This document shows, one piece after another, positions 33,956 to 54,618 of a stretch of 64,000 bases of DNA (positions are counted from its first letter, which is position 1; the number at the start of each line of letters is the position of its first letter). This DNA is from Alcanivoracaceae bacterium (GTDB taxonomy: Bacteria; Pseudomonadota; Gammaproteobacteria; Pseudomonadales; Alcanivoracaceae), in the NCBI GenBank assembly GCA_029212745.1, contig JARGOL010000010.1, positions 1 to 64,000 of the forward strand, in the 5' to 3' direction. The notes under the pieces were generated by a model that did not search any database, was not told where the DNA came from, and saw only the letters and a list, made by a program, of their open reading frames with translations. The position numbers and the translations under genes are program-made.

Positions 33956-33960
33956 CTTGC

Positions 33961-37376: not shown

Positions 37377-37583
37377 ATGCGACTCATGCGATTAAAGGAA
37401 ACCTGCCAGATGGCGGGCATCGAGAAGACCACAGCCTACAAGCTGATGAACGAGGGTGCCTTTCCCAGACCTGTAACCGTTGGGGGGCGAGCCGTCCGAT
37501 GGGTCTCGACGGAAATCGAGGCTTGGATCATGGACCGGATGGAGGAGCGGGATGGTGAGGCAGTTGCCTCTGGCTGCCCATGA
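37377..37583 (+). CDS. AlpA-family transcriptional regulator
   Basis: A 68-residue MerR-like winged-helix protein. The pattern RLKETCQMAGIEKTTAYKLM, then FPRPVTVGGRAVRW and ST(E)IEAWIMDRM matches AlpA, a phage/island regulator that often activates excision. AGGAG lies six bases before the ATG. A small TCGCT/AGCGA repeat precedes it. It likely controls integrase or cargo expression, or acts as excisionase. Confidence 0.88.
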   Translation: MRLMRLKETCQMAGIEKTTAYKLMNEGAFPRPVTVGGRAVRWVSTEIEAWIMDRMEERDGEAVASGCP

Positions 37584-37640
37584 CGAGATCACGTCGGTGT
37601 AGCTTGGGGCGGTGCTCCTGGCGGAACGATTCCTGCTGGA

Positions 37641-37693
37641 AAAGACGACATGACCATGTAATCAGTGATGTCATGTCGCCTGAAAGTACATAT
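37641..37693 (+). promoter_or_regulatory. palindromic operator/promoter A, driving module 1
   Basis: The inverted repeat CGACATGAC (37646-37654)/GTCATGTCG (37670-37678) is followed eight bases later by TACATAT, a possible -10. The same arrangement with identical spacing recurs at 53031-53084: GAAAAGACGACATG, ATGTARTCAGT, CATGTCG, TACATAT. It sits 35 bases before the first gene of module 1. It is probably bound by the WYL regulator at 51.8-52.7 kb. Confidence 0.75.
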
Positions 37694-37727
37694 TCTGATG
37701 TTCAGAGCAACGTACTTGGAGCCCCTG

Positions 37728-38129
37728 ATGTCTGCGTTCTTGGATCGTGGTTTAAGTGACGCCGACTGGTACAAGGTCCAGAAGGCCGCCAAAGACTGGT
37801 CCTCTCAGCTGATCCAGATACAGAACGAGGTCACCTATGTCATTGAGTGTCTCGTAGAGGATTATCGGGCCGAGGCACGGCGGGGTATGAAGGATGCCTA
37901 CGACTGCCTGAGGCAGTCCACACTGCCAGAGAGCTGGCAGGCTCGAATAGAGGAGATGCTGGATGCCGCCGTGCCGCCCCTGAACAGCAGGCATTTGGTG
38001 TCTTGCGCCCGGAAGCTGTCCGCCTTGAGGCGAGTCCTCGCCAACGAAGTAGCATGGTTTAACCAGGTAAAGCTGCCGTACTCGGATGAGCTTTACCCGG
38101 CTCTTGATTCGGTACAAACCCCTTCATGA
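37728..38129 (+). CDS. unknown protein, first gene of module 1
   Basis: 133 residues, helical and soluble, not recognised. Contains RGLSDADWYKVQKAAKDW near the N-terminus and a C-terminal FNQVKLPYSDELYPAL. ATG 37728 is chosen because GGAG lies seven bases upstream; an in-frame start at 37665 would overlap the operator. It begins the operon containing the SbcD/SbcC-like pair and type III genes, 112 bases before the next start. It may be an accessory factor; function unknown. Confidence 0.65.
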   Translation: MSAFLDRGLSDADWYKVQKAAKDWSSQLIQIQNEVTYVIECLVEDYRAEARRGMKDAYDCLRQSTLPESWQARIEEMLDAAVPPLNSRHLVSCARKLSALRRVLANEVAWFNQVKLPYSDELYPALDSVQTPS

Positions 38130-38241
38130 ATCCGCTAGCATACGCCAAAAGTATGAATCTGGCCGCGCTCAGGCTCCCCTGCGGGGGACTGGGATGCCGC
38201 ATTCAGGACGGAACCACCCGGCAATCCAGGGAGACAGGATA

Positions 38242-39366
38242 ATGCCCCGTTTTCTCCATACCGCTGACTGGCAGATTGGTCGGCAGTACCCGCGCTTTGA
38301 TCCAGACGATGCCGTGCCTCTTGCGGAGGCCCGCCTGACCGCGGTCGAGCGCATCGCGGCACTCGCCGCGGAAGAATCGGTAGACGCCGTTTTCGCGGCG
38401 GGCGATGTGTTCGACGCCCAGACCGTATCAGACCGGACTATCAGGCGGCTCTTCAACGCCATGGCAGGGTACACGGGGCCATGGATTCTGCTTCCCGGAA
38501 ACCATGATGCCGCGCTGGCGGAGAGCGTCTGGACCCGGGCCCAGCGTCTGGACGCGGTGCCGGATAACGTCCACCTGGCCCTGTCGGCCGAGCCCATTGA
38601 GTTCAGCGAGCAGGGCTTTGTGGTTCTGCCAGCCCCCCTTGCCCAGCGCCACGCACAGAACGACCTGACCGCCTGGTTTGATCAGGCAGACACCGACAGT
38701 GGCCTGATCCGCATCGGCGTCGCCCATGGCAGTGTCCAGGGCGTACTGGCCGAAGAGATGGAGGCCCACAATCCCATCGCGCCTGATCGAGCCGAGACCG
38801 CAAGGCTGGACTATCTGGCCTTGGGTGACTGGCACGGGGCCAAACAGATCAATGCGCGCACCTGGTACTCGGGCACGCCAGAGCAAGAGCGCTTCAGGGG
38901 CAATGAGCCTGGCCATGTACTGCTGGTAGACATCGCATCTTCCGGTGCCACCCCGGCGGTGATGACCCATTTCGTGGGCCAGCACCAGTGGATTCAGCAT
39001 GAGGCAGCCCTTGCCGTGTCATCCGATGTGGATGCGCTGGTAAGTGCCCTGCAGGAGCTGCCCGAAGGGGCGGTGGTGGACTTGAAGATTGCCGGCACGG
39101 TGGACTTGGAAGGCAAGCAGGCCCTGGACAGGGCAATCTCCGTGGCCAAGGCGCGGTTTCGCAGTCTGACGGTGGACGATGCCGGCCTACGCTTGCAGCC
39201 AAGTGAGGAGGATATCGCCAGCCTCAAGGCAGATGGGTACGTAGGCGCTGTGATTGCCGAATTGCAGGAAGAGCAGTCAGGCGAGAATGGCGAAGTCGCC
39301 AGGGATGCCATGGCTGTCCTAGCCGAAATACTCCTTGACGCACAGGGTCAGGGAGGTGGCGCATGA
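38242..39366 (+). CDS. SbcD/YhaO-like metallophosphoesterase, DNA repair exonuclease subunit
   Basis: A 374-residue calcineurin-like nuclease of the Mre11/SbcD group. Metal motifs are LHTADWQIGR (8-ish, with Gln where the DxH motif of SbcD has His), AGDVFD, PGNHD, GVAHGS and GDWHGA. The Q substitution is usual in the YhaO-like branch. The C-terminal 130 residues form the capping and partner-binding part. It overlaps the ATPase gene by four bases, so the pair should form a Mre11-Rad50-type complex that binds and processes DNA ends. AGGGAG precedes the ATG. Confidence 0.88.
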   Translation: MPRFLHTADWQIGRQYPRFDPDDAVPLAEARLTAVERIAALAAEESVDAVFAAGDVFDAQTVSDRTIRRLFNAMAGYTGPWILLPGNHDAALAESVWTRAQRLDAVPDNVHLALSAEPIEFSEQGFVVLPAPLAQRHAQNDLTAWFDQADTDSGLIRIGVAHGSVQGVLAEEMEAHNPIAPDRAETARLDYLALGDWHGAKQINARTWYSGTPEQERFRGNEPGHVLLVDIASSGATPAVMTHFVGQHQWIQHEAALAVSSDVDALVSALQELPEGAVVDLKIAGTVDLEGKQALDRAISVAKARFRSLTVDDAGLRLQPSEEDIASLKADGYVGAVIAELQEEQSGENGEVARDAMAVLAEILLDAQGQGGGA

Positions 39367-42002
39367 AGTTGTTGCGCGTCAGCGTCAACCAGTTACGGCA
39401 ATTCCGGGACCCGGTTGAGATCCGCGACCTGGAAGACGGCATCAATCTTTTCACTGGCCCAAATGAGTCAGGCAAGAGCACCCTGGTACGTGCCATTCGC
39501 GCGGCCTTCTTCGAGCGCCACAAGTCCTCCAGTGTTGGCGACCTGCAGCCCTGGGGTGACTCTGCCGCCGCTCCCGAGGTAGAGCTTCAGTTTGAGTGGC
39601 AGGGCAAAATCTGGAAGGTGGTGAAGAGCTTCCTGAAGAAAAAGCGCTGCGATGTCTCGGTGGATGGCACCACCTATAGCGGCGATGAGGGTGACGACAA
39701 GCTGGCGGACCTGCTGGGCTTCGATCTGCCCAAGAAGGGGGCCAGCAATGAGAAGCACTGGGGCATACCCGGGCTGCTCTGGATCGAACAAGGCGCAGGG
39801 CAGGAGATCAAAGCCCCGGTGGAGCATGCCGGGCAGCAGCTGAAGGCTGCACTGGGTGAGGATCTTGGCGAAGTCGCCAGTAGTACCGGTGACGAGCTGA
39901 TTGGCCGTGTCAGCAGCGAGCGGAGCAAGTTGCTCACCGGGAGGGGTAAGCCAACAGGCGAGCTCTCAAAGGCCATGGATCAAGAAGAGGAGCTGCAAGC
40001 CGAGCTGCACGATCTGCGTGAGCGCATCCAGCGCTATGCCGACCAGGTGGATCGCCTGGGCCAGTTGAGGGCAGAACAGCAAAAGGCTGATGCCGAGCGC
40101 CCTTGGGAGCAATTCCGGCAGCAGGCACAGCAAGCGCAGCAGGCTCTCGACAGTGTGACGGCTTTGCAGAAGGATCAAGAGCGAGACCAACAGGCGCTTA
40201 GCGACTGCCAGGCCAGCATTGAGACAACCCGCGAGCTGCTCAAGGGCTTTGAGAGCCAGAAAGGCGAACTTGCGGAGCGTGAGCGCCAGCAGCAGGAGGC
40301 AAACCAGAAGCGCACTGAGCTTGAAGCACGGAAGCCGGCTGTTGAAGAGGCGCTTGAGAAGGCCCGCCGGGCACATAAAGGCGCCCGTGAAGCGCTGAAG
40401 CGCGCCGAAAATGCGGAGCGCCGCGAGGAGCTGGAGCGCCAGCAAAAGGATCTTGAGGCCGACCTGAAAAGAGACAGCGACAAGCTGGAGCGCGCCAAAT
40501 CCCTGCATGCCCGTTTGCTGGAAAGTCGCCAGAAACAGCAGGCGCTGGCTCTTGATGCTGACTCTATGAAACAGCTGCAAGAAGCCGTCAGGGCGCTGGA
40601 GCGCCTGGATATTCAACAAAAGGCGGTGGCGACCCGGTTGCAGTATGACCTGCAGGATGACCAGGCCGTTACCCTGGATGGAGAGGCATTGTCCGGGAAA
40701 GGTGAGTCCTTGCTCCTCGAGCCTGGAGAAGTGGCTGTCCGTGGCGTGGGCACGTTGAGGATTCTGCCCGGCGGGGATGATGTCGCTGAAGTGGCACGCA
40801 ACCAGGCGCGACTGACTGACGAGCGAGATGGTCTCCTTCAGTCGCTGGGGGTGAGCTCGCTCGCCGAAGCGGAACAGCGGCTTGCTGAGCATGATGAACT
40901 GGCTCAGGCAATCGAGAAAGACCAGTCCGTCCTCAATGAGCTTGCACCGGAAGGGCTGGACGCCCTGTCTGATGACCTGAAGCTTCGCCAGGATAAGTTG
41001 GAACGGCTGGCCGAGCAGGTTTCGGCACTGCCGGCCCCGCAAGGCGAAGCCCTTTCGGTGACGCGCGCTCAGGCCCAGGTAGAGACCGCAGAAGAGGCGC
41101 TGGAATCAGCAGAAGACGCTTATCAGTCGTACAAAAACGAGATGGCCCTGGCAGATCAGGCATTGGAAAAAGCCAGTCAGGAGCACCGGCGGATCAAGAC
41201 CGCGCTGGAAGACCCGAAGCGCAGCGAGCAAGAGAAGCAGGCGCAGAACCAGCTGCTGGAACGCGGGGCGGCCGAGCGTCGCTTTCAGCAGAGTATTGCT
41301 GAGCGCGACTTGAAAATTCAGGCGGCCAGGCCGGATGCGCTGCAGCAGGATGTGGAGCGCTTCACGCGCAGTGCCGAGGCAGCGGAGCGCCAGCTGGAAG
41401 AGCGAACCAGGGAGCTGGATAAAATACAGGCAGTTCTGGAGACCGTGGGAGCCGAGGGGCTGGGTGAAAAGTGCGCGGAGACGGAGGTCCAGCTTGAGCG
41501 TGCCTCGCGTCGAAGGGCCGAGTTGCAGCGCCGTGCCGATGCCCTGGATCTGCTATTGGAGCGTCTCACAGCGCACAGGCTGGAGCTGACCCGCCGGTTA
41601 CAGGCACCGCTGCAGAAGCATCTCACTCACTACGTCCAGTTGCTGTTCCCTGGCGGCAGCCTGAGAGTGGACGAAAACCTGATCCCGGAGGTGCTCGTTC
41701 GGCAGACGCATGGGGCAGAGGAGCGGGGCAGCTTCGATGACCTGAGCTTCGGCGCGCGCGAGCAAATGGCGTTGATCAGCCGATTGGCATATGCGGATCT
41801 ACTCAGCGAGTCTGGGCAGCCCACGCTGATCATCCTTGATGATGCCCTGGTACACAGTGATGCCGAGCGCCTGAAAGCCATGAAGAGGGTGCTGTACGAT
41901 GCCTCTCAACGGCACCAGATCCTGCTGTTCACATGCCACCCTGAGAACTGGCAGGATCTCGGGGTGGTCGCCCAGAGCATGGAGGCACTGAAGAGCGCAT
42001 AG
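39363..42002 (+). CDS. SbcC/YhaN-like SMC-type ATPase
   Basis: An 879-residue Rad50-like ATPase. The N-terminal Walker A is GPNESGKST (32-40). Long coiled coils (about 180-400 and 480-720) flank a central non-coil segment (420-470, with LEPGEVAVRGVGTLRILPGG). There is no CxxC zinc hook anywhere in the protein, unlike canonical SbcC and Rad50. The C-terminus carries the signature SFGAREQMALISR and Walker B TLIILDDAL. With its SbcD-like partner it should act on DNA ends. Placed before the helicase and type III genes, it may inspect or degrade foreign DNA. Confidence 0.87.
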   Translation: MKLLRVSVNQLRQFRDPVEIRDLEDGINLFTGPNESGKSTLVRAIRAAFFERHKSSSVGDLQPWGDSAAAPEVELQFEWQGKIWKVVKSFLKKKRCDVSVDGTTYSGDEGDDKLADLLGFDLPKKGASNEKHWGIPGLLWIEQGAGQEIKAPVEHAGQQLKAALGEDLGEVASSTGDELIGRVSSERSKLLTGRGKPTGELSKAMDQEEELQAELHDLRERIQRYADQVDRLGQLRAEQQKADAERPWEQFRQQAQQAQQALDSVTALQKDQERDQQALSDCQASIETTRELLKGFESQKGELAERERQQQEANQKRTELEARKPAVEEALEKARRAHKGAREALKRAENAERREELERQQKDLEADLKRDSDKLERAKSLHARLLESRQKQQALALDADSMKQLQEAVRALERLDIQQKAVATRLQYDLQDDQAVTLDGEALSGKGESLLLEPGEVAVRGVGTLRILPGGDDVAEVARNQARLTDERDGLLQSLGVSSLAEAEQRLAEHDELAQAIEKDQSVLNELAPEGLDALSDDLKLRQDKLERLAEQVSALPAPQGEALSVTRAQAQVETAEEALESAEDAYQSYKNEMALADQALEKASQEHRRIKTALEDPKRSEQEKQAQNQLLERGAAERRFQQSIAERDLKIQAARPDALQQDVERFTRSAEAAERQLEERTRELDKIQAVLETVGAEGLGEKCAETEVQLERASRRRAELQRRADALDLLLERLTAHRLELTRRLQAPLQKHLTHYVQLLFPGGSLRVDENLIPEVLVRQTHGAEERGSFDDLSFGAREQMALISRLAYADLLSESGQPTLIILDDALVHSDAERLKAMKRVLYDASQRHQILLFTCHPENWQDLGVVAQSMEALKSA

Positions 42003-42062
42003 GGGAGGGTGTCCGACTCCTCAATTTTCCCCTATTCTCTCAGGTCTGCAGCGGAGATGAGC

Positions 42063-42254
42063 ATGGCAGACGACATCATGACCCTCAAGGAGGTCGCCGG
42101 GTACCTGAAGCTGGCCGAGAAGACAGCCTACCGGCTGGCGGCCGACGGCAAACTGCCGGGGTTCAAGGTGGGAGGCTCATGGCGTTTCCGCAGAGAGGAT
42201 ATGGAGCGATGGATCGCTGACAAGAAAAAAGAGGCCGGAGGCCAACAAGATTGA
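42063..42254 (+). CDS. excisionase-family small DNA-binding protein
   Basis: A 63-residue MerR-like helix-turn-helix (HTH_17) protein: MTLKEVAGYLKLAEKTAYRLAADGKLPGFKV, GGSWRFRREDMERWI. ATG 42063 follows GGAG by six bases. Proteins of this kind often sit just upstream of type III-like helicase operons and probably regulate them; it is also similar to excisionases. It lies in the middle of module 1, so it may adjust the downstream genes independently of the WYL regulator. Confidence 0.85.
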   Translation: MADDIMTLKEVAGYLKLAEKTAYRLAADGKLPGFKVGGSWRFRREDMERWIADKKKEAGGQQD

Positions 42255-42454
42255 TAACTGCCTGCCATGCCAAATACTACGCCCATGAGCTGACCCGCCA
42301 GGCGCCGCCGGGCGCTGCGGATCAGCTTTGTATGCCTGTTTTCGACGTCCTGCTGAGTGTGAATTCAAGCAACATCGAGTCGGACATAGCCTGTCTCAAC
42401 ATGACGTCTTCGCAACGCATCCGCCGGGGCTGGCCAGAAGGAGTTCTCCAGTGA
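42251..42454 (+). pseudogene. decayed N-terminal fragment of an SNF2-type defence helicase
   Basis: A 67-codon reading with HAKYYAHELTRQ and a following VFDVLLSVNSSNIESDIACLN. Intact relatives of this start (KYYAHELTRR, then LxDAxVDLNPHQIxAALFA) belong to SNF2-type helicases of defence islands. Here the homology weakens and ends at a stop beside the next gene. It looks like a remnant left by replacement or deletion; this rests on memory of the family and no alignment. Confidence 0.4.
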
Positions 42455-45400
42455 AGCTGATCTCAAATGCTGGCAGTGACCGGGTTATCGATCACATCGA
42501 GCCCCACCTTGAGAAGGGTTTCCAGCTTGGTGTTGCCAGCCAGGAATTTTCCCTGTTCGCCTTTTCTGCGCTTAGGAAGGCTCTGCTCCAGACCAGTGAG
42601 GCCAAGATTATCCTCCCCGCTGAACCAGATCGACTGGCCTTGCTCGGTGGAGAAGGAGATCGTGCTGGTCGCAATAGTCTGCAATCCCGGTGGCTGGCTG
42701 GCCAGCTGATGTCCTGGCTCACGAAGAAGACCCAAATTCGAGTGGTCTCAGGGCCGGTGCCGCAGGGGGCGGTTGTCCTTAGTGACGAGCAGGGGAGTGC
42801 CAAGCAGGTTGTCATTGGATCGTTCGCTATGACGACGGACGGGCTCGGTCTCACGCCAGGCAATCCAATGACGATGATCCAGGCTACAGAGTCGGATGTG
42901 GAGGCGGAGAGGTTTGCCCAGTGGTTCGCATCCCATTGGGACGCCCTGTCCGATTCACCAGAACATACGGCTGGCCTGGTTGGTGCGCTGGAGGAAATTA
43001 GTCAGCACAAGGACCCGATGGCTATCTACGCGCGGATCTTGCTGTGCTTGTTCCGGCGTGGAGAAGACAGCCTTGATGAAGATGCCATCGTGCGATCTGC
43101 CACGGGCATCCGAAATACGGTTGTATGGAAGAAGCTGTTCAAGTTTCAGCGTGACGGTGTCGTCGGGGCCATTGATAAGCTCAACCGTTTCGGCGGCTGT
43201 ATCATTGCCGACAGCGTCGGCCTCGGTAAAACCTTCGAAGCACTTGCGATCATCAAATACCACGAACTACGTAACGACCGAGTGTTGGTTTTGGCTCCTA
43301 AACGCCTGCGTGACAACTGGACGCTTTACAAGGCGAACGACAAACGCAATCTGCTTTCGGCAGACCGATTCAACTACGACGTGCTCAATCATACCGATCT
43401 AACCCGTCAAGGCGGCATGTCTGGCGATATCGACCTTTCCCATGTGAATTGGGGGAATTACGATTTGGTGGTGATCGACGAATCCCACAACTTCCGGAAT
43501 AAATCCACCCATAAGGGCAAGGAGTCACGCTACGATCGCCTTATGCGCCGAATCATCCGTGAGGGGGTCAAGACTCGGGTGCTTATGCTTTCTGCTACAC
43601 CAGTGAACAATCGTCTCACGGACTTGCGCAACCAGATCGCATTTGTCACGGAAGGTGATGACACTGCGTTGGCAGACCACGGCATTGCCAGTATTGAAGC
43701 AACGACTCGCAAGGCACAGACACAGTTTAATCGCTGGCTGGCCATGGATGAGGAGGATAAGACTCCATCGGCGCTGGTGGAAATGCTGGGCTTTGACTAT
43801 TTCACCTTGCTGGATCATCTCACCATTGCTCGCTCACGCAGGCACGTGGAGAAGTATTACGGCACTTCGGAGACAGGCCGATTTCCTGATCGTCTGCCAC
43901 CGATCAATATAAAGGCAGACATTGATCTGTCTGGCGAATTCCGGTCGATCCGTGACATCAATACGGAAATCCGCCGTTTAACGTTGGCCAGCTATGCGCC
44001 ATTACGCTACGTGCTGCCGCAAAAGCAGGCCGCATACGATGCCAAGTACAGTACCCAGATTCGTGGAGGAGAAAGCTTCTTTCGTCAGGTAGACAGAGAG
44101 GAAAGCCTGATCCACCTGTTACGTGTCAATGTTCTGAAGCGTATGGAAAGTGCCGTCTCATCTTTTCGATTAACCGTGGAACGGCAGTTGAGAGACGTGG
44201 AAGCCACGCTTGAACAGATTGAGGCCCATGCCCATGAGCTTGAGGAGATCGACATCGCTGATGTGGATGTCGATGATCCGGCATTTGAAACACTGCTTGT
44301 GGGGCGAAAGATCAAGGTATTGCTCAATGACGTCGACCTTGTCCGCTGGAGGCAGGACCTGGTTGAAGACCGCAATCGGTTGGCCACCCTGCTTGCAGCG
44401 GCAGAACAGGTTGACCCCTCGCGTGACGCTAAACTGGCAGCGCTTCGTGACATGATCGAGCACAAGTGCAAGACGCCGGTTAATACGCATGAGGGCAACG
44501 GTAACCGAAAAATTATCGTTTTCACGGCGTTCTCAGACACTGCGCATTACCTGTATGAGCAGCTGGCCGACTGGGCGAAAGGCACTCTGGGCATTGACGC
44601 TGCTTTGGTTACGGGGAGTTCCGGCATCAAATGCACAGTGCCAGGGCTGCGCAAGAGCATGAGTGGCGTGCTGTCCGCCTTTGCGCCACGCGCCAAGGAT
44701 CGCCCCGACGAACTGGCCGATGAGGGCGAGATTGATCTGCTGATTGCCACCGATTGCATTTCCGAAGGCCAGAACCTGCAAGACTGTGACTGGCTGATCA
44801 ACTACGACATTCACTGGAATCCGGTGCGGATCATCCAGCGCTTTGGCCGTATTGACCGTATTGGCTCACCAAACGAGTGCATTCAGCTGGCTAATTTCTG
44901 GCCAAACATGGAGCTGGAAGAGTACATCAACCTGGAGCAGCGGGTCAGTGGTCGAATGGTTCTGCTCGACGTTTCGGCCACCGGCGAAGAGAACCTGATC
45001 GAGCAGCAGTCTGGCAATCCGATGAACGATCTGGAGTACCGTCGCAAGCAGCTGCTCAAACTGCAGGACAGCGTCATTGACATGGAGGATCTGTCCACCG
45101 GTGTGTCGATTACTGACCTGACACTGACCGATTTTCGCATTGATCTGGCGGAATACGTAAAGGCGCATCCGGGAAAACTGGAAAACCAGCCCTTGGGGGC
45201 CTTCGCGGTGACTTCCACGCTGGATGCCGATATTCCGCCGGGTGTGATTTTTTGCCTGGAAGCCTGTGGCCCGGCGGCCCACAAGGCGGAAGAATCCGAA
45301 TACCCGCTGGCACCACACTATCTCGTTCACGTCGGTAACGATGGCTCGGTATTACTGCCTTACCCTCAAGCCAAACGCATCCTCGACCGGCTCAAGCGGC

Positions 45401-45660
45401 TTGCCCTTGGTCGGGAACTCCGTGATGCCACCGCCTGCGCGCAGTTCGACAAGGCCACCAAGCAGGGCGAGGACATGCGCCACGCCCAGAAATTGCTGGC
45501 CGCGGCGGTGGCTTCAGTAGTGGGGAAGAACGAAGAGCGGGCCGTCGCCAGTCTGTTTACGCCCGGCGGCACCCATGCCATCAAGGGAGAGTTCGCGGGC
45601 AGCAACGACTTTGAGGTGGTGGCCTTCATGGTGATCCTGCCGGAGAACGAGACGCCATGA
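42451..45660 (+). CDS. phospholipase D-like/SNF2 helicase, defence-type
   Basis: A 1069-residue protein. The first about 190 residues resemble the PLD-like domain of anti-phage helicases, but the expected HxK of the HKD motif is not visible (GAVVLSD and VVIGSFAMTTDGLG in its place), so nuclease activity is doubtful. The SNF2 core has Walker A DSVGLGKT (about 251-258), DESH, SATP and motif VI IQRFGRIDRIG. GTG 42451 is the start, preceded by AGAAGGAG; the open frame upstream has no such signal. It overlaps the DUF4391 gene by four bases. Likely moves on DNA as part of an extended type III restriction system. Confidence 0.85.
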   Translation: MKLISNAGSDRVIDHIEPHLEKGFQLGVASQEFSLFAFSALRKALLQTSEAKIILPAEPDRLALLGGEGDRAGRNSLQSRWLAGQLMSWLTKKTQIRVVSGPVPQGAVVLSDEQGSAKQVVIGSFAMTTDGLGLTPGNPMTMIQATESDVEAERFAQWFASHWDALSDSPEHTAGLVGALEEISQHKDPMAIYARILLCLFRRGEDSLDEDAIVRSATGIRNTVVWKKLFKFQRDGVVGAIDKLNRFGGCIIADSVGLGKTFEALAIIKYHELRNDRVLVLAPKRLRDNWTLYKANDKRNLLSADRFNYDVLNHTDLTRQGGMSGDIDLSHVNWGNYDLVVIDESHNFRNKSTHKGKESRYDRLMRRIIREGVKTRVLMLSATPVNNRLTDLRNQIAFVTEGDDTALADHGIASIEATTRKAQTQFNRWLAMDEEDKTPSALVEMLGFDYFTLLDHLTIARSRRHVEKYYGTSETGRFPDRLPPINIKADIDLSGEFRSIRDINTEIRRLTLASYAPLRYVLPQKQAAYDAKYSTQIRGGESFFRQVDREESLIHLLRVNVLKRMESAVSSFRLTVERQLRDVEATLEQIEAHAHELEEIDIADVDVDDPAFETLLVGRKIKVLLNDVDLVRWRQDLVEDRNRLATLLAAAEQVDPSRDAKLAALRDMIEHKCKTPVNTHEGNGNRKIIVFTAFSDTAHYLYEQLADWAKGTLGIDAALVTGSSGIKCTVPGLRKSMSGVLSAFAPRAKDRPDELADEGEIDLLIATDCISEGQNLQDCDWLINYDIHWNPVRIIQRFGRIDRIGSPNECIQLANFWPNMELEEYINLEQRVSGRMVLLDVSATGEENLIEQQSGNPMNDLEYRRKQLLKLQDSVIDMEDLSTGVSITDLTLTDFRIDLAEYVKAHPGKLENQPLGAFAVTSTLDADIPPGVIFCLEACGPAAHKAEESEYPLAPHYLVHVGNDGSVLLPYPQAKRILDRLKRLALGRELRDATACAQFDKATKQGEDMRHAQKLLAAAVASVVGKNEERAVASLFTPGGTHAIKGEFAGSNDFEVVAFMVILPENETP

Positions 45661-46463
45661 CCGCAAGCTCTGAGTCCATCACCAAGGCGAAAACCATTAT
45701 CCGGGCCCTGTCTTTACCCCAGAGCTGCCGGGTGGATCAGCGTGTGCCCAAGAAACTGCTGCTGGAGAACGGCGCTCCCACGGCGGCGGACAAACGCCTG
45801 ATCACCGAAGCCATTGAAGAGATCCAGTGGGTCGCCGCCCTCAAGCCCAACACCATTGGCGTACCGGATTCCCGGGATGCGGTGCGCGAGTATCTGGAAG
45901 TGGCGGTGCTCACCATCACCCTGAAAGCGGCCATTAAACCGTCTGGCCGTTCCCGCCTCGCCGAGCTGCTCCACCGTGCCGTGCCGTACCCGGTGCTGCT
46001 GCTTATGAGTGACGAGCAGGAGGTGACCTTGTCACTGGCGCACAAGCGCTGGGCGCAAAAGGAGGCGGCCAAAGTAGTCCTCGACGGTGATTTGGTGTCG
46101 GCAGCTTTATCAGCGTCACCCCCTGAAAATGCTGACCAGGCCGATGCTGAGCGAGCTTTTATTGAATCCCTGTCGGTCGCACGACAACCTCAGGCCAGCC
46201 TGCAGGTTTTCTACCAAGGCTGGATGGACCGGATTCATGCTTTACTGGCCGCTCGGCTAACAGGTAGCTATCGGCCAACAAACAACCCGGAACAAGCCGC
46301 CGCGCGTAGACAAGCCCTGATGGAATGCGAGCGCCTGGAAGCAGAAGCCAGCCGCCTCAGGGCACTGGCAGCAAAAGAAAAACAACTGGCCCGCCAGGTG
46401 GAGCTGAACCTGGCGCTGCAGCGTGTTCAGGCAGAACTGATCGCCGCACGCCAACAACTTTGA
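45657..46463 (+). CDS. DUF4391 domain protein
   Basis: A 268-residue protein of the DUF4391 family, which regularly lies between the PLD-SNF2 helicase and the type III mod gene. Motifs: CRVDQRVPKKLLLENG, IQWVAALKPNTIGVP and the C-terminal Arg-rich coiled coil (EAEASRLRALAAKEKQ). Function is unknown; constant co-occurrence suggests an adaptor or complex subunit. It starts within the helicase stop (ATGA overlap). Confidence 0.85.
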   Translation: MTASSESITKAKTIIRALSLPQSCRVDQRVPKKLLLENGAPTAADKRLITEAIEEIQWVAALKPNTIGVPDSRDAVREYLEVAVLTITLKAAIKPSGRSRLAELLHRAVPYPVLLLMSDEQEVTLSLAHKRWAQKEAAKVVLDGDLVSAALSASPPENADQADAERAFIESLSVARQPQASLQVFYQGWMDRIHALLAARLTGSYRPTNNPEQAAARRQALMECERLEAEASRLRALAAKEKQLARQVELNLALQRVQAELIAARQQL

Positions 46464-46504
46464 ATCATCTTGCCTTGAAGATTGACTGAATGATGGAGAG
46501 CAAC

Positions 46505-48544
46505 ATGGAGAAGATCACCGCAACCAGCTCAGAGGCGCAGTCCGCCGATTTGGTGTCCGCCAATATCGAGCAGCTCAAAGCCCTGTTTCCGGAGCTGATT
46601 ACCGAGGGAGCCAATGGTGCTGCGGTGAACGTGGATGTCCTCAAAGCGCTGGTTGGGGATCATTCGGTAACTGATGCGGATGAGAAGTATGGCCTCAACT
46701 GGCACGGCAAGCGGCGCGCTCGCCAACTTGCTCTGACGCCCAGCATGGGCACCTTGCGGCCTTGCCCGGAAGAAAGTGTGGATTGGGATACCACCCAGAA
46801 CCTGATGATTGAGGGCGACAACCTTGAAGTGCTCAAGCTGCTGCAAAAGAGCTATGCAGGCAAGGTGAAGCTGATCTATATCGACCCGCCATACAACACA
46901 GGCAAGGATTTTGTGTACCCGGATAACTTTCAAGACAACATCAAGAACTATCAACAGCTGATGGGATGGCGTGATGACGAAGGTCAGAGGACAAGCTCTC
47001 TCGCCAGGAACAGTGAAGCTAGCGGCCGGTTTCATACTGACTGGCTTAATATGATGTATCCGAGATTAAAGTTGGCCAGAGACCTTCTCAAGGATGATGG
47101 CTTTATCATGGTATCAATTGATGATATTGAGCTTCACAATCTGCGCTTTATCCTGGACTCGATATTCGGCGAGGAAAACTTTGAAGGCTCTTTCATATGG
47201 GAAGGTGGGAGGAAGAACGATTCACGCAGGGTTTCGACGGGGCATGACTACATAGTTGTTTACGCCAAGAGTTCCTCTCTTCTGAAAGAGCTTGATATTA
47301 GGTGGCGGGACCGGAAATCTGGATTGGAAGAGGTCTACGCAAAGGTCGAAGAACTTAAGAACGCATTTAAGGATGACTACATATCTGCATCAAAGGCTCT
47401 TCAACGCTGGTTTAAAAGCTTACCTGAGGGGAGTCCGGCAAAAGAGCACTCTCACTATAAAATGATTGACGCGAAAGGCGCCTGGTACGGAGACAATATT
47501 TCCAGCCCCAACCCCAGAGCCAACCTTACTTTTGAATGGAAGGGGTATCAACCGCCTGCCAATGGTTGGCGTTATGATCGGGATGCGATGAAAAGGTTGG
47601 ACGAAGAGGGGCTCTTGCTGTATCCCGAATCCAAAGAGAGGCGCATTCAGTATAAGCGATACCTACACCTTACAGAAACCTGGTCACCCTCATCGGTTTT
47701 TTACAAGGACAGAAGAGCGGCATCTAAGGATCTAAGTGCCTTGATGGGTGCAAAAATCTTTGATTTTCCGAAGGCCGTAGATGTTATTGCGCGCTTGGTT
47801 AGATTGGCAACCTCCCAGGGCGAGCTAATTATAGATTTCTTCGCGGGATCGGGCGCCACCGGGGAGGCAGTTCTAGATCAGAATCTGTCTGATGGCGAAG
47901 ATCGAAGATTCATACTGGTCCAGCTCCCTGAGCCCCTTGATATCGAAAGCAAGGATCAAAGCGATGCGGCGAAATACTGCGACGAAATTGGCAAGCCTTG
48001 CACCATTGCAGAGCTCACTAAAGAGCGCCTGCGCCGTGCCGCAGCCAAGGTCAAGACCGATAACCCCCTGTTTTCCGGCGATACCGGCTTCCGCGTCTTC
48101 AAGCTTGACCACTCCAATATCCGCGCCTGGAACCCTAGTCCAGCGGATCTGGAAGTCTCCCTGTTCGACCATCAGGATCATCTCCTCGAAGGCCGCTCTG
48201 AGGCTGACGTGCTCTATGAGCTGTTGCTCAAGCTCGGCCTTGATCTCTGTGTGCCCATTGAGCAGCGCACCATCGCGGACTGTGAAGTGCATGCTGTGGG
48301 TGGCGGCGTGTTGATAACCTGCCTCGCTGAGCAGATTGCTCGTGAGCAGGTGGAAACGCTGGCCCAAGGCATTATCGACTGGCACAAGGAATTGCTTTCT
48401 GCTTCAGGCTACGCTAGCCAAGACAAAATAGCTCGCGAAACAACCTGCGTGTTCCGCGATAGTGCTTTTGAGGACGATGTCGCCAAGACCAACCTCGCCG
48501 CTATTCTGGAGCAGTACGGCATTCAGAACGTGCGCAGTTTGTGA
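46505..48544 (+). CDS. type III DNA methyltransferase (Mod)
   Basis: A 679-residue beta-class N6-adenine methyltransferase. The catalytic motif DPPY lies at 127-130 (YIDPPYNTG); the SAM-binding FAGSGATG motif comes much later (about 444-451), the order of the beta class. The region between (about 210-420) is the variable target-recognition domain. AGGAGAG-like GGAGAG before the ATG at 46505 supports this start; ATGs at 46490 and 46493 are alternatives. It modifies the host recognition site and, with Res, forms a type III system. Confidence 0.93.
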   Translation: MEKITATSSEAQSADLVSANIEQLKALFPELITEGANGAAVNVDVLKALVGDHSVTDADEKYGLNWHGKRRARQLALTPSMGTLRPCPEESVDWDTTQNLMIEGDNLEVLKLLQKSYAGKVKLIYIDPPYNTGKDFVYPDNFQDNIKNYQQLMGWRDDEGQRTSSLARNSEASGRFHTDWLNMMYPRLKLARDLLKDDGFIMVSIDDIELHNLRFILDSIFGEENFEGSFIWEGGRKNDSRRVSTGHDYIVVYAKSSSLLKELDIRWRDRKSGLEEVYAKVEELKNAFKDDYISASKALQRWFKSLPEGSPAKEHSHYKMIDAKGAWYGDNISSPNPRANLTFEWKGYQPPANGWRYDRDAMKRLDEEGLLLYPESKERRIQYKRYLHLTETWSPSSVFYKDRRAASKDLSALMGAKIFDFPKAVDVIARLVRLATSQGELIIDFFAGSGATGEAVLDQNLSDGEDRRFILVQLPEPLDIESKDQSDAAKYCDEIGKPCTIAELTKERLRRAAAKVKTDNPLFSGDTGFRVFKLDHSNIRAWNPSPADLEVSLFDHQDHLLEGRSEADVLYELLLKLGLDLCVPIEQRTIADCEVHAVGGGVLITCLAEQIAREQVETLAQGIIDWHKELLSASGYASQDKIARETTCVFRDSAFEDDVAKTNLAAILEQYGIQNVRSL

Positions 48545-48628
48545 GGGGCCAAGGATGACAAATTATCAGGAGAATGAATTTACACGCACGCCAGTGCGCC
48601 CGCAGGGTGGCGTAGAGGGAGTTGCGTC

Positions 48629-51600
48629 ATGAAGCTTCACTTCGAGTCCAACCTCGACTACCAGCTGCAAGCCATTGAGTCCGTCTGTGACCTGTTCCGT
48701 GGCCAGGAGGTGTGCCGGACTGAGTTTACGGTCACTATGCAGGCCCAAGTAGCTGAACATGTACCGGGCTACGAGGAGCCTACCCAGCTTGGCGTTGGCA
48801 ACCGTTTGACCTTGCTGGATGATGAGGTGCACCAGAATCTGGCGGATATCCAGCTCCGTGGTGGCCTGCCGCCGTCAGGCTCACTGGCATCAGGCGATTT
48901 TACCGTCGAGATGGAAACGGGTACTGGTAAAACTTATGTCTATCTCCGCACTATCTTCGAGCTCAACAAACGCTATGGCTTCAGTAAGTTTGTCATTGTG
49001 GTGCCCTCCGTAGCCATCAAGGAAGGTACATACAAGACCCTGAAAATTACTGAAGACCACTTTAAGGCGCTCTACGCCGGTGTGCCTTTTGACTACTTCC
49101 TCTATGACTCCAGCAAACTGGGGCAGGTGCGCAACTTTGCCACTAGTTCTAATATCCAGATCATGGTGGTCACGGTAGGCGCCATCAACAAGAAGGATGT
49201 GAATAACCTGTACAAGGATAGCGAGAAGACCGGTGGTGAGCGCCCCATTGACCTGATCAAGGCAGCTCGGCCTATCGTCATTGTCGATGAGCCCCAGAGC
49301 GTGGACGGTGGCTTGCAGGGTAGGGGAAAAGAAGCGCTGGATGCCATGAATCCCCTCTGCACCCTGCGATATTCCGCCACCCATGTGGACAAACACCACA
49401 TGGTATACCGGCTGGATGCCGTGGACGCGTACGATCGAAAACTGGTCAAGCAGATTGAGGTTGCCTCAGCCACTGTGGAGCAGGCTCATAACAAGCCGTT
49501 TGTCAGGCTGGTTTCTGTCAGCAATAAGCGTGGCGTAATCAGTGCCAAGGTCGAACTTGATGCTGCCACGGCCAAAGGCGTTCGGCGGCAGGAAGTCACT
49601 GTCCAGGATGGCGATGACCTGGAGCAGACTACCCGGCGGCCGATCTATGAGGGTTTCCGCATTGGTGAGATTCGTACTGGTAAAGGCGATCAGTTCATCG
49701 AGCTGCGTTACCCGGGTGGCGAAGTCTTCCTGAAGCCAGGGCAGGCTCACGGCGATGTTGACGCCACGGCCGTGCAGCGGGAGATGATTCGCCGCACCAT
49801 ACGAGAGCACTTGGACAAGGAAAAGCGCCTGCGGCCACTCGGTATCAAGGTGCTGTCACTGTTCTTCATTGATGCCGTGGATAAGTATCGCCAGTACGAT
49901 GCAGACGGCAACCAGGTGAAAGGCGAGTACGCCCTGATATTTGAGGAAGAGTACCGCCGCGCCGCGAGACTGCCCGATTACCAAAGCTTGTTTGCTGAGA
50001 TAGACCTGGACTCTGCGGCCGAGGAAGTGCACAACGGCTATTTCTCGATCGATAAGAAAGGCGTCTGGCAGGACACTGCAGAGAATAACGTGAGTAATCG
50101 CGAAAACGCCGAGCGTGCCTACAACCTGATTATGAAGGAGAAAGAGAAGCTGCTGTCATTCAGCACGCCGCTCAAGTTCATCTTCTCCCACTCCGCCCTG
50201 AAAGAGGGCTGGGATAACCCGAACGTATTCCAGATATGCACCCTTCGCGATATTCAGACAGAGCGTGAGCGCCGCCAGACTATTGGCCGGGGTCTGCGCC
50301 TATGCGTCAACCAGAACGGTGAGCGTGTGCATGGCTTCGAGATCAACACCCTGACGGTCATCGCTACAGAGAACTATGAGGAGTTTGCCGAGAACCTGCA
50401 GAAGGAGATTGAAGCGGATACAGGAATACGATTTGGTATCGTCGAGCAGCACCAGTTTGCTGCCATTACCGTATTCGACGAGGATGGCCAGGCCGAGCCC
50501 CTCGGGCTTGATCAGTCCAAGGCACTTTGGGAGCACCTCAAGACAGCCGGACATATCGACGCCAAGGGCCAGGTGCAGGATTCTCTGAAGGCAGCTCTGA
50601 AGGACGGCTCGCTGGCACTGCCCCCTGAGTTCGACGATCAGAAAGCCCAGATTGCCGAAGTTCTGCGTAAGGTATCTGGACGCCTTGAAATCAAGAATGC
50701 GGACGAGCGTAGGCAAGTGGCACTGCGCAAAGGTGGGGACGGGAAGGCCATTTATCTTAGTGAGGAATTCAAGGCTTTATGGGACCGCATCAAGCATCAG
50801 ACCACCTATCGAGTGGATTTTGACAATGCTGCCCTTATTACCAAGTGCATCGACGCGCTGCAGAAGGCCCCACCCATCAGCAAAGCCCGTCTGCAATGGC
50901 GTAAGGCCGACATAGCCATCGGCCGGGCCGGCGTCGAGGCGACTGAGACGGGCGGAGCCGCCACCATAACGCTGGATGAAGCAGATATTGAGCTGCCGGA
51001 TCTACTTACTGATCTTCAGGATCGTACCCAGCTAACCCGCCGGACCATCACCAGGATACTGGTTGATAGCGGCCGTCTGGAAGACTTCAAGCGTAACCCG
51101 CAACAGTTCATTGAACTGGCCGCTGAGACCATCAACCGCTGCAAGCGCATGGTATTGGTAGACGGCATCAGGTACCAGAAACTGGGTGACCAGCACGTCT
51201 ACGCACAGGAGCTATTCGAAAAGGAAGAACTCACCGGCTACCTCAAGAACATGCTGATGGATACCCAAAAGTCGATCTACGAGCATGTTGTCTACGACTC
51301 CACAACAGAGCGGGATTTCGCAGGCGCCATGGAGAAGAACGACGCCATCAAGCTCTACGCGAAGTTGCCTGGTTGGTTCAAAGTGCCAACGCCGCTGGGG
51401 TCATATAACCCGGATTGGGCCGTGCTGGTAGAGGATGACGGCGCGCAACGGTTGTATTTCGTTGTTGAGACCAAGAGCAGCTTGTTTGAGGACGACCTGA
51501 GAGACAAGGAGAGCGCCAAGATTAAGTGCGGGGAGGCTCATTTCGCCGCATTGGCCTCGGAATTTGAAGGCGTTGGTGAGCAGCCAGCTCACTATATTAC

Positions 51601-51655
51601 GGCCCGTGATATCAATGACTTGCTGACGAAAGCCGAAGCAAATAAGAGTGGGTAA
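48629..51655 (+). CDS. type III restriction endonuclease subunit (Res)
   Basis: A 1008-residue ATP-dependent restriction subunit. Helicase motifs: Walker A METGTGKT (97-102 for GTGKT context), IVDEPQS, LRYSATH and the C-terminal helicase stretch RRQTIGRGLRLCV. The nuclease is a PD-(D/E)xK domain near the end: NPDW (927-930, Asp929) and VETKSS (Glu947, Lys949). All key residues are kept. It needs Mod for sequence recognition and cuts unmodified DNA after translocation or sliding. AGAGGGAG precedes the ATG; the gap from mod is 84 bases. Confidence 0.94.
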   Translation: MKLHFESNLDYQLQAIESVCDLFRGQEVCRTEFTVTMQAQVAEHVPGYEEPTQLGVGNRLTLLDDEVHQNLADIQLRGGLPPSGSLASGDFTVEMETGTGKTYVYLRTIFELNKRYGFSKFVIVVPSVAIKEGTYKTLKITEDHFKALYAGVPFDYFLYDSSKLGQVRNFATSSNIQIMVVTVGAINKKDVNNLYKDSEKTGGERPIDLIKAARPIVIVDEPQSVDGGLQGRGKEALDAMNPLCTLRYSATHVDKHHMVYRLDAVDAYDRKLVKQIEVASATVEQAHNKPFVRLVSVSNKRGVISAKVELDAATAKGVRRQEVTVQDGDDLEQTTRRPIYEGFRIGEIRTGKGDQFIELRYPGGEVFLKPGQAHGDVDATAVQREMIRRTIREHLDKEKRLRPLGIKVLSLFFIDAVDKYRQYDADGNQVKGEYALIFEEEYRRAARLPDYQSLFAEIDLDSAAEEVHNGYFSIDKKGVWQDTAENNVSNRENAERAYNLIMKEKEKLLSFSTPLKFIFSHSALKEGWDNPNVFQICTLRDIQTERERRQTIGRGLRLCVNQNGERVHGFEINTLTVIATENYEEFAENLQKEIEADTGIRFGIVEQHQFAAITVFDEDGQAEPLGLDQSKALWEHLKTAGHIDAKGQVQDSLKAALKDGSLALPPEFDDQKAQIAEVLRKVSGRLEIKNADERRQVALRKGGDGKAIYLSEEFKALWDRIKHQTTYRVDFDNAALITKCIDALQKAPPISKARLQWRKADIAIGRAGVEATETGGAATITLDEADIELPDLLTDLQDRTQLTRRTITRILVDSGRLEDFKRNPQQFIELAAETINRCKRMVLVDGIRYQKLGDQHVYAQELFEKEELTGYLKNMLMDTQKSIYEHVVYDSTTERDFAGAMEKNDAIKLYAKLPGWFKVPTPLGSYNPDWAVLVEDDGAQRLYFVVETKSSLFEDDLRDKESAKIKCGEAHFAALASEFEGVGEQPAHYITARDINDLLTKAEANKSG

Positions 51656-51758
51656 ATGTCCATTTTTCGCTCGGGTGTTAAGGATTCCTCAGCACGAATC
51701 GGATCTCACCCCGCTACAGAGTTGGCCGAGGTCTGATCATGCGTCGCTGGTCCCGTAT

Positions 51759-52652
51759 TCACCTAAGCGGCATGTTGGTGAGGAGCCAAGGGTCTGTCTC
51801 TTGGGTATTTGAAACCACAATTTGTTGTGCCTCTGGAGGGCTTTTAGCGGTAGAGGGGTCGACGCGTAGCTGCTGCAGGATGTAGCTGACCAGTGCACCT
51901 CGGGTGGTGATGGTGAGCGTGCCGTTCTCCATCCCGTAGTCTCTTGCCACCAGCTGCTGCTGGGCTTCGCTGAGTCTGGGGTCCGGCACCAGTTTGATGG
52001 CCACCTCCGTTTGCCAGGCAGCGTCGTCAGCTGCGGTTTTCTCCGCCGGCAGCACAATCTCGGGCTCATCACTGATCCGGCTGAGCACAAAGTCCCGGAA
52101 ATCACTGTTCTTCTCACACCAGGCCCTGACGTGCCAGCGGTAGCCTGAATGAACGACGGTGTGGGGCTGGATCACACGGTATTCAGGTTCCGGGTTAGCC
52201 AGAGAGGCATATTCGATCTCGACGCGCTTCTGCTCCCTGCAGGCCTGCAGGATGGGGCGCAGGATATTAGGCCGCAAGTCACGGGCAGGAGGAAGCAGCA
52301 CCTCTGTATTCAGCTCCCGCACGGCCAGCTCCTCAAACCGGCAGGCCAGGTCTTCCCGTGTGTGCATCATGTGCAGGTATTCATCGGCAACGCCGCGGGT
52401 AAATTTGGGATCGAACGTGGTGGTGGGCTTGTAGCCTTTCAGAAACCGGTCATACACCAGGTTGTCAGGGCCGTGTTCGGCCAAGTAGGTGTTTATGTCC
52501 TTGGAGGCTTGCTGGCGGCCGATGCCAAATGCCCGCATCAGGTGGTTCGTGGTGAGGCGCCCCTCCCACAGGCTGATCACTTCGATCAGCCGATAGCGTA
52601 GGAGGAGGTCCCACCGAAGGGGCCAGGGTGAAGCAGGTTTCGGGTTTGCCAT
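51759..52652 (-). CDS. WYL-domain transcriptional regulator, BrxR/CapW-like
   Basis: A 297-residue regulator. The N-terminal winged helix (about 12-75: LLLRYRLIEVISLWEGRLTT, FGIGRQQASKDINTYL) is followed by a WYL domain (about 120-195: VEIEYASL, VVHSGYRWHVRAWCE, FRDFVLSRI) and a WYL C-terminal extension (200-290). This is the layout of BrxR/CapW, defence repressors that release DNA on sensing a ligand. It is followed by no gene on its strand and preceded by a 102-residue partner. The twin palindromes at 37.6 and 53.0 kb are its likely targets, the second in its own divergent promoter region. Confidence 0.9.
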   Translation of the reverse strand: MANPKPASPWPLRWDLLLRYRLIEVISLWEGRLTTNHLMRAFGIGRQQASKDINTYLAEHGPDNLVYDRFLKGYKPTTTFDPKFTRGVADEYLHMMHTREDLACRFEELAVRELNTEVLLPPARDLRPNILRPILQACREQKRVEIEYASLANPEPEYRVIQPHTVVHSGYRWHVRAWCEKNSDFRDFVLSRISDEPEIVLPAEKTAADDAAWQTEVAIKLVPDPRLSEAQQQLVARDYGMENGTLTITTRGALVSYILQQLRVDPSTAKSPPEAQQIVVSNTQETDPWLLTNMPLR

Positions 52653-52673
52653 GTCCTGACTCCCTTGTTCGGC

Positions 52674-52982
52674 TCAGCTTCTGAACGGGTCGACTGCTTT
52701 GAACCCGAATACGCAGTATCCAGAGAGGCCCGCATCGACGGAAATGATGACGTCCACTCCGGTGGTGATCTCGTCAGGGGTGGCCTCCGGGTCGATGTTC
52801 GCCACCAGCATCCTGTCCCCCAGGGCCGTATCGTATTCGCCAGCATCGCCGTAGAAGGCGAAGATCAGGCTTGGGTCACCCACATTTAGGCCATCAGACG
52901 TGGCATTTTCCGTGCACTGGCCGGTAAAGGGCGAGTAGCAGAGCGGTTTGTCTGACTTGAGCTGAATGCGCTGTACGGTCAT
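52674..52982 (-). CDS. unknown small protein beside the WYL regulator
   Basis: 102 residues, not recognised, probably cytosolic and beta-rich (VDVIISVDAGLSGYCVFGFKAVDPF at the C-terminus). It precedes the WYL gene by 21 bases on the same strand and shares its divergent promoter region (operator B). It may modulate the regulator or belong to the defence module; no function can be assigned. Confidence 0.6.
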   Translation of the reverse strand: MTVQRIQLKSDKPLCYSPFTGQCTENATSDGLNVGDPSLIFAFYGDAGEYDTALGDRMLVANIDPEATPDEITTGVDVIISVDAGLSGYCVFGFKAVDPFRS

Positions 52983-53030
52983 GTGTACTCCTGAATCACA
53001 TCACGGTTGTTGGTTCTGCTTGTATGGTTG

Positions 53031-53084
53031 AAAAGACGACATGTTCATGTAGTCAGTCTAACCATGTCGTCATTAAATACATAT
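53031..53084 (+). promoter_or_regulatory. palindromic operator/promoter B, divergent region of module 2
   Basis: Inverted repeat GACGACATG (53035-53043)/CATGTCGTC (53063-53071), then TACATAT eight bases after CATGTCG. It matches operator A over about 54 bp with the same spacing. It lies between the WYL-partner gene and the divergent 53180 gene, so it can control both directions, including autorepression. Confidence 0.75.
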
Positions 53085-53179
53085 ATTGGGTGTCAGGCAA
53101 GAGGGGGGTTTTGGCCTGCCACCGGTCAATCTTAGCCCCGGTCATTAACTGCCACTGTCGAATTGCCCCGGGAGGAACC

Positions 53180-53458
53180 ATGAAGCAACTGCCAGAGGCG
53201 CTCATTGGCAAGCGCATAGAGGGAGCGGTATTGCGCGAGCATCGCGACTTGCGTCGCCGCCCCCGGTGCCAGCTGATCCTGTGCTTCGACGACGGCACAA
53301 GCTTTGAGTTCTGGTGCGGCGAAGACGAGATTCACCCTGCCGGAGGATTTGACAAGTATTCAGTCGATACAGTGCAGTCGTATATGGGCGATGTGATGAA
53401 GGTGGTACGCCAGATTCCGGCGCAGGGAGATTTTGGGGGCTCTGGCGCGGACGGGTAA
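53180..53458 (+). CDS. unknown protein, first gene of module 2
   Basis: 92 residues, no recognised family. Charged N-terminal part (RIEGAVLREHRDLRRRPR) followed by CFDDGTSFEFWCGEDEI and a C-terminal Gly-rich tail. ATG 53180 is preceded by GGAGG; longer readings overlap operator B. Immediately followed by the next unknown gene with a zero-base gap. Probably cytosolic; function unknown. Confidence 0.65.
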   Translation: MKQLPEALIGKRIEGAVLREHRDLRRRPRCQLILCFDDGTSFEFWCGEDEIHPAGGFDKYSVDTVQSYMGDVMKVVRQIPAQGDFGGSGADG

Positions 53459-53920: not shown

Positions 53921-53925
53921 AAAAC

Positions 53926-54564: not shown

Positions 54565-54618
54565 AGGGGCAGCCGAGTTGGCCCCTGGAGCAGTGGGGCT
54601 GGAATCAGCGGGAGTAAC

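Follow-up and report, generated by a model that had tools for sequence, protein, structure and literature searches.

A repeated promoter-like block accompanies a BrxR-like WYL regulator gene and precedes two defence-type operons in an Alcanivoracaceae bacterium

In a 64,000-nucleotide stretch of an Alcanivoracaceae bacterium (contig JARGOL010000010.1 of assembly GCA_029212745.1, positions 1 to 64,000; hereafter the window), a block of about 60 nt occurs twice, once before an operon of Mre11/Rad50-type and type III restriction genes (site 1, 37633..37696, + strand) and once before a cassette that ends in a phosphoesterase gene (site 2, 53024..53087, + strand). The gene of a WYL-domain regulator lies between the two operons. 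Our analysis makes it likely that the block is the operator-promoter of this regulator, a member of the BrxR clade, which would coordinate both operons through the near-identical copies.

The pattern AAAAGACGACATGNNCATGTARTCAGTNNNNNCATGTCG matched exactly at 37640-37678 (+) and 53031-53069 (+), the only sites in the window at up to three mismatches, and never occurred in 100 shuffles. Among the 20 largest of 27 families of direct repeats in the 28-64 kb region, the pair ranked top (60 nt, 75% identical, 37634-37693 and 53025-53084); the same 20 families contained no attachment-site repeat that was convincing by eye. Site 1 and site 2 are identical at 47 of 67 bp (70%), against 25-30% agreement of their flanks in each of four 100-bp blocks taken in the same register, which rules out a recent segmental duplication as the origin of the pair. 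The initial annotation had placed shared segments at 37641-37693 and 53031-53084, 15 kb apart in unlike surroundings, and this is confirmed, with coordinates accurate to within two bases. In a logo of relatives (described below), conservation extends ~7-10 bp further upstream (TG..TGAAAA) and runs downstream to a -10-like hexamer ending at 37696 in site 1 and 53087 in site 2. We found no additional copy in the organism's own genome (3.3 Mb, 25 contigs) at the limits used: a 34-base part of AAAAGACGACATGNNCATGTARTCAGTNNNNNCATGTCG and a 29-bp pattern, both at up to three mismatches, and a half-site ladder (~13.5 specified bases, up to one mismatch) each returned the two window sites only, with one match for the reversed 29-bp control and none for the ladder controls. 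Viral contigs held no exact match to the 29-bp pattern, and a tRNA was the only known RNA element at gathering thresholds in 25-64 kb.

Across genomes, the site goes with the WYL gene rather than with the cargo; this is the outcome of the motif search of the element and related islands that the initial annotation had named beforehand as a check. The 19-base motif of the window, at up to three mismatches, was matched in 20 of 29 WYL loci of other genomes (L004-L032), the chance expectation for a similar 18-mer being 0.89 per 64 kb. Close WYL homologues (E below 1e-80) were present in 24 of 46 genomes of the family, and the block at up to three mismatches was found in 22 of these 24 vs 0 of the 22 genomes without such a homologue (Fisher P = 3.5e-11). 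The other two are G030, which has a four-mismatch copy, and G045, where the WYL match begins at query residue 90. Outside the own genome there are 30 close family copies of the WYL gene, of which 29 were fetched with 20 kb of sequence (L063-L091; the truncated G045 copy was left out), and each of the 29 has a block at up to four mismatches, no more than 70 bp from where the WYL match starts and directed away from that match.

Scanning genome contigs with the DNA pattern alone, where about four chance matches are expected on an equal-base estimate, returned 29 block-bearing stretches, 27 of which hold a WYL gene. Eighteen of the stretches come from the family; a WYL gene is present in nine of the 11 from outside it, in Aeromonas, Ferrimonas, Simiduia and a Spongiibacteraceae metagenome-assembled genome, at WYL identities down to 45% (Aeromonas). 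The two stretches without the gene are a Desulfocapsaceae contig, probably a chance match, and an Aeromonas media contig with the block at the contig end. By genome, nine outside the family had a three-mismatch match, which lies by a WYL gene in G089 and G165; the other seven (G051, G052, G144, G162, G168, G180, G192) are away from one and look like chance, the reversed-pattern control giving 9 matches in 193 genomes. Among 11 WYL loci of other families (L092-L102), a block at up to five mismatches stood by the WYL start in three (L092, L093, L101). A bare half-site ladder had 21 exact matches in the 46 family genomes and none in controls; 20 are known block sites and the remaining one is in G025, a genome with no WYL match. 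Among phage records, two of Acinetobacter encode a relative at E <= 1e-20. The block is thus almost confined elsewhere to the vicinity of one type of regulator, suggesting that a single regulator probably controls both operons of the window.

The cargo varies independently of the site. Cassettes kept without the motif had been put forward in the initial annotation as evidence against a common operator, and such cassettes do exist: of the 13 Mre11-like homologues found in other genomes, 11 lack the motif in the fetched stretch (~1.5 kb either side). None of these 11 is near a close WYL gene, although the one in G024 has a 29-31% WYL relative ~12 kb away. As to the other two, the G002 homologue has the block within its fetched stretch, and a block ~7 kb upstream opens the same-strand run to which the G043 homologue belongs. 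Nine homologues of the phosphoesterase at ~60% identity or more were fetched, with a block within 1.5 kb of five (G018, G021, contig 56 of G032, G041, G043) and absent in four. Downstream of the block in relatives, we compared 50 chosen proteins with PADLOC (E cut-offs 1e-15, 1e-10 and 1e-40; genes were called with a greedy longest-open-reading-frame script that misses some). These included Zorya I (L069, L078), type I restriction (L064, L066, L070, L072, L090), BREX I (L074, L087), a BrxA-like protein (L067), BrxHI/DrmD-like helicases (L064, L065, L085), a DrmD-like helicase with a type III methyltransferase (L083), a PDC-S37 candidate (L080) and a weak RT-protease match (L071); at these cut-offs several loci, including L079, L084, L091 and L092, had no PADLOC family among their scanned proteins.

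The regulator itself (297 aa, 51759..52652, - strand; Pfam WYL 4.3e-17), the presumed binder of the block, is BrxR-like along its winged helix-turn-helix (HTH), WYL and WCX domains in sequence, and in its predicted fold. Its nearest solved relative is BrxR (7t8k, phmmer E=1.5e-64 over residues 14-270 of 297), with CapW next (7tb6, E=1e-44). A structural model (mean predicted local distance difference test score 78.5) had chains of Acinetobacter BrxR as its top four Foldseek matches (best 7t8l, 1.9e-26), at modest template-modelling scores of 0.53-0.56 by query length. Of the ten residues that contact bases in BrxR, R11, R38, Q39, Q40, K64 and Y66 are conserved, and S37, K46, R47 and H59 are not. 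The protein has a single match in its own genome at E <= 0.001. As in the BrxR family, inverted repeats are present near its own gene start and it is associated with defence systems, both in the window and in the chosen proteins of relatives. No family of CBASS, the partner of CapW, was listed by PADLOC for ten window proteins (for three of them among the best 25 families or fewer).

The architecture of the block was read from a logo of 23 clusters at 85% identity, derived from 41 distinct sites (42 sites and 22 clusters with longer flanks). Counting from the G of GACATG as position 0, the logo has TnGnCA at 21-26 and, after 17 bp, TAnnnT at 44-49, a predicted promoter of sigma70 type. The corresponding -35-like and -10-like hexamers are ATGTCA (37668-37673) and TATTCT (37691-37696) at site 1, with a predicted start at ~37703, and TAACCA (53059-53064) and TATATT (53082-53087) at site 2, with a predicted start at ~53094, all on the + strand. 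Dyads of the form ATGT-N11-ACAT score best at centres 18, 35 and -5 (mean 7.1, 6.7 and 6.0 of 8; mean over all centres 2.1), which places them near -38, -21 and -61 relative to the predicted start. We call them O_B, O_C and O_A, respectively. O_A (37633-37651, 6/8; 53024-53042, 7/8) is upstream, O_B (37656-37674 and 53047-53065, both 7/8) covers the -35, and O_C (37673-37691 and 53064-53082) is perfect (8/8) in both window sites and covers the -35/-10 spacer. The block therefore reads as a sigma70-type promoter tiled by dyads of BrxR geometry.

The palindromic operator of the initial annotation, ACATGnnCATGT, is present, and is too simple a description: the right arm of O_A meets the left arm of O_B there, and the junction of two dyads of BrxR geometry, with another over the -35/-10 spacer, describes it better. 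A variant of our reading, not exclusive with it and in our view unlikely, would keep the short dyad GACATGnnCATGTARTC as the sole operator and take all other conservation as promoter. Judged by eye, no other short dyad in the logo is both perfect and as strong. Its half-site spacing, however, is unlike that of BrxR, it is lost in some distant relatives that retain ATGT-N11-ACAT dyads 17 bp apart, and the logo has a conserved C and A just 5' of the -10 for which a promoter gives no reason. On the spacing of these relatives, the simple 2-bp-spaced palindrome was downgraded as the whole operator.

The register of the dyads was also visible in upstream regions that had not contributed to the logo. 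From 31 loci of WYL relatives, reduced to 29 by similarity, dyad spacing 17 ranked first, 23 second and 40 third of 38, and the triple (23,17) ranked second of 676 (z 4.1). Without three plasmid loci the triple ranked third (z 3.6) and spacing 40 eleventh. ATGT was the top of 12 permutations, a gap of 11 the best of 15, and none of 200 letter shuffles, which preserve single-letter content only, attained the observed scores. Because some of the 29 regions plainly have block variants (e.g. L199-L201, L204, L216), we also scored a strict set of 23 regions that lack the 20-bp core at up to four mismatches, and spacing 17 was still first of 38. The 23/17 register is directly visible on three plasmids with 47-54% WYL identity, two of Pseudomonas and one of Enterobacter.

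In the mechanism that we propose, dimers of the WYL protein would occupy O_C and/or O_B and block polymerase at both promoters as well as at the divergent WYL promoter. This would keep the Mre11/Rad50-type III operon (site 1) and the phosphoesterase cassette (site 2) low, each presumably read as one transcript, and the regulator would probably also repress, from site 2 and on the other strand, its own transcript with the adjacent small gene j102. A signal sensed by the WYL/WCX domains would then release all operons together; more speculatively, this signal may be single-stranded nucleic acid arising from infection. Repression is proposed because BrxR and CapW are described as repressors (PMC9122601, PMC9122588) and a BrxR homologue appeared to repress the protection conferred by Shield II (PMC10270631).

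The same protein and sites might instead serve activation, with the WYL protein responding to DNA damage or infection, like PafBC or DriD, by recruiting RNA polymerase to weak promoters; we judge this rather improbable. WYL activators exist (PMC10693628, PMC11804915, PMC12340889) and PafBC and DriD are among the fold-search matches; in addition, the -35 and -10 matches are weak, and the positions of O_A and O_B are either upstream of the -35 or on top of it. PafBC and DriD are not the nearest relatives, however, being absent from the phmmer list at E <= 0.01 and reaching a fold E of 1.1e-8 or worse vs 1.9e-26 for BrxR. The nearest relatives by sequence and by fold are instead the repressors BrxR and CapW, and O_C, the dyad with a full score at sites 1 and 2, spans the -35/-10 spacer.

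Extra copies of the block speak to whether site 1 could be a non-functional relic, moved with a cassette that was once adjacent to a WYL gene. We consider this very improbable. In G002 the block does stand between the WYL gene and a divergently oriented Mre11/Rad50 pair, with a single small open reading frame separating block and Mre11. At site 1, however, O_C and O_B are preserved as at site 2 despite the divergence of the flanks, and copies beyond the WYL-adjacent one are retained in 6 of 30 family loci (the 29 fetched loci and the window), seven copies in all: L064, L065, L067, L068, L073 (two) and the window, with one more in another family (L093). A same-strand open reading frame of at least 75 aa begins 13-78 nt past the predicted transcript start in 6 of 7 extra sites of relatives, L093 having none; the random-position control for this analysis was drawn from block-containing loci, and the loci are not all independent, since the L065 and L068 sites are near-identical and their cargo alike. 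The best parallel to the window is G043, where three sites surround one WYL gene. Its WYL-adjacent site precedes a cassette with relatives of the 153-aa, 270-aa and phosphoesterase genes, a second site leads a 432-aa gene, and the third heads a long same-strand run of Leo-like genes, Mre11, Rad50, the HTH gene (74% identical), an SNF2 helicase and a type III methyltransferase. The comparative evidence supports the earlier proposal, and predicts that both operons are served through a common site by a single BrxR-like WYL protein: the site tracks the WYL gene, the nearest solved relative is BrxR, the protein has no second match in the genome at E <= 0.001, and G043 has a like layout.

Binding of the block by another island protein (AlpA or the MAD1-like HTH protein), with the WYL gene nearby only through shared islands, has in its favour that alpA is directly upstream of site 1 and that a small HTH gene is inside operon 1, and was rejected on co-occurrence, since the 29 block-bearing stretches hold a WYL gene in 27 cases, an alpA homologue in 3 and a small HTH homologue in 1, and the block is within 70 bp of the WYL match in all 29 fetched family loci.

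Several observations weigh against the BrxR-like WYL protein acting as repressor through these dyads. On the protein side, S37, K46, R47 and H59 of BrxR are not conserved, and an R47A substitution is reported to abolish specific binding by BrxR (PMC9122589). The promoters are near consensus only weakly (-35 at 4/6 and 3/6, -10 at 4/6 and 5/6), which an activator fits too. Among the dyads, O_A is the weakest, a fourth centre at 12 scores 5.3, near the mean of O_A, and one CATG is common to O_B and O_C, which precludes full binding of two dimers at once. In the unused upstream regions the triple (17,17) ranks above (23,17), and in the strict set spacing 23 is no higher than twelfth of 38; with spacing 17 robust, O_B plus O_C are well supported and O_A moderately. 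Vibrio and Acinetobacter BREX plasmids (WYL identity 41-43%) have GTAAA-type repeats and no ATGT dyads by these two BREX-linked WYL relatives, which indicates that the dyad grammar belongs to the clade and not to all BrxR proteins. As for distribution, the block pattern was widened on the family WYL loci before the family counts were made, so these counts, although not the absences, are partly by construction; 8 of the 11 other-family WYL loci (51-59% identity) have no block at up to five mismatches by the WYL start; the G002 phosphoesterase cassette has no site although a close WYL gene is ~15 kb away; and a tenth phosphoesterase homologue, which is on contig 67 of G032 and outside the fetched set, likewise has no site nearby, with a close WYL gene ~11 kb off. 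These two cassettes are true exceptions.

Two related sites (R-BOX1, R-BOX2) for one WYL repressor of a defence island are already published for BrxR of Escherichia fergusonii pEFER (PMC9122601), a paper that also places BrxR relatives near many defence systems. The IR1 halves of the R-BOXes align poorly in pEFER, whereas 47 of 67 positions agree here, and here two or three dyads stand in fixed register over the promoter in a block that recurs beside WYL relatives of several families. BrxR of Acinetobacter NEB394 (PMC9122589; 7t8k, 7t8l) has RQQ, R11, K64 and Y66 in common with the WYL protein. Its R38 is described as contacting a G at 7 bp and a T at 6 bp from the centre of the dyad (GT-N11-AC), a geometry equal to the ATGT-N11-ACAT of the block, and the region that it binds, from -51 to -27, overlaps the -35. 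It differs in having a single 25-bp dyad where we see a ladder, and in leading the BREX operon on the same strand, whereas the WYL gene here is divergent from its neighbours. CapW of CBASS (PMC9122588; 7tb5, 7tb6, 9c5g) is, as proposed here, a bidirectional repressor divergent from its operon with palindromes overlapping the promoter, and a CapW structure entry is titled as bound to single-stranded DNA; it differs in serving one operon, with the bound palindrome at the -10. RptR (PMC12255303) is likewise a defence-island repressor with an adjacent binding site conserved across genomes, but is a 79-aa non-WYL protein that uses TAGCTA repeats and accompanies mainly type I restriction. According to Picton et al., many BrxR homologues are preceded by inverted repeats; the parts of that article considered here describe no shared operator. 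By title and the start of the abstract, in a literature coverage from which subscription journals are mostly absent, we found no description of this operator; by title, nothing relevant on Alcanivorax WYL regulators.

Site 1 lies between alpA (37377-37583) and the first gene of operon 1, whose genes are all on the + strand with intergenic gaps below 100 bp. This first gene (133 aa, 37728..38129; no family found) has a 64% homologue at the WYL-divergent site of G011 (L069). It is followed by genes for an Mre11/SbcD-like metallophosphoesterase (38086..39366), a Rad50/SbcC-like ATPase (39363..42002), a small excisionase-type HTH protein (42009..42254; MAD1 NCBIfam score 81.9 against a cut-off of 80, a narrow margin), an SNF2-type helicase (42328..45660; PADLOC C3a139, 1.2e-113), a DUF4391 protein (45657..46463; 3.6e-74), a type III methyltransferase (46490..48544) and a type III restriction enzyme (48629..51655). 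The Mre11-like, Rad50-like and MAD1-like HTH genes (38086-42254) are grouped both in the window and in G043 (L178), and may constitute a composite defence unit with a partial relationship to MADS. On an Aeromonas media plasmid (L193, 251-8895), a WYL gene is divergent from ADP-ribosylglycohydrolase, NUDIX, DUF262, SNF2 and DUF4391 genes, and the SNF2-DUF4391 pair resembles that of operon 1.

Site 2 has the leftward j102-WYL pair (start 52982) on one side and the rightward second cassette on the other, and is also 5' of j102-WYL. The 102-aa open reading frame j102 (52674..52982, - strand), between the site and the WYL gene, had no homologue at E <= 1e-5 across 40 loci of relatives. The second cassette (53180..55548, + strand) comprises 92-aa, 153-aa and 270-aa open reading frames without family matches and the PrpE/ApaH-like phosphoesterase (54619-55548, +). 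The starts at 37728 (GGAG upstream) and 53180 were chosen by eye from Shine-Dalgarno-like sequences, the in-frame starts of the script being too far upstream. Relatives of the 153- and 270-aa frames accompany the phosphoesterase in G043, and relatives of the 270-aa frame occur in G064 and G163; this recurring cassette (53459-54564 and 54619-55548) may be an undescribed defence or accessory module. Upstream of site 1, an integrase (32573-33955), a YfjJ-type gene (36617-37318) and alpA suggest, from their Pfam names, a CP4-57-like integrative island; these element genes (32573-37583) adjoin mutS. Past the defence genes (59556-62023) come genes for an ankyrin-repeat protein (59556-60287) and, at 61115-62023, for a Gp3-like recombination-directionality protein.

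A wider proposal, which may equally well prove right or wrong, is that this BrxR clade provides plug-in control of defence islands: a WYL gene with a portable operator-promoter, in which CATG half-sites form a ladder at 17-bp intervals, one step being 6 bp, placed before unrelated defence operons (Zorya, BREX, type I and III restriction, Mre11/Rad50 and phosphoesterase cassettes) so that new systems join one island-wide switch, with half-sites shared such that dimers would compete or assemble and release would be graded or all-or-none. If our reading is true, it would give a legible operator for one BrxR clade across several families and make the membership of an island regulon predictable from sequence alone. 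It also suggests that defence modules are exchangeable beneath a constant regulator.

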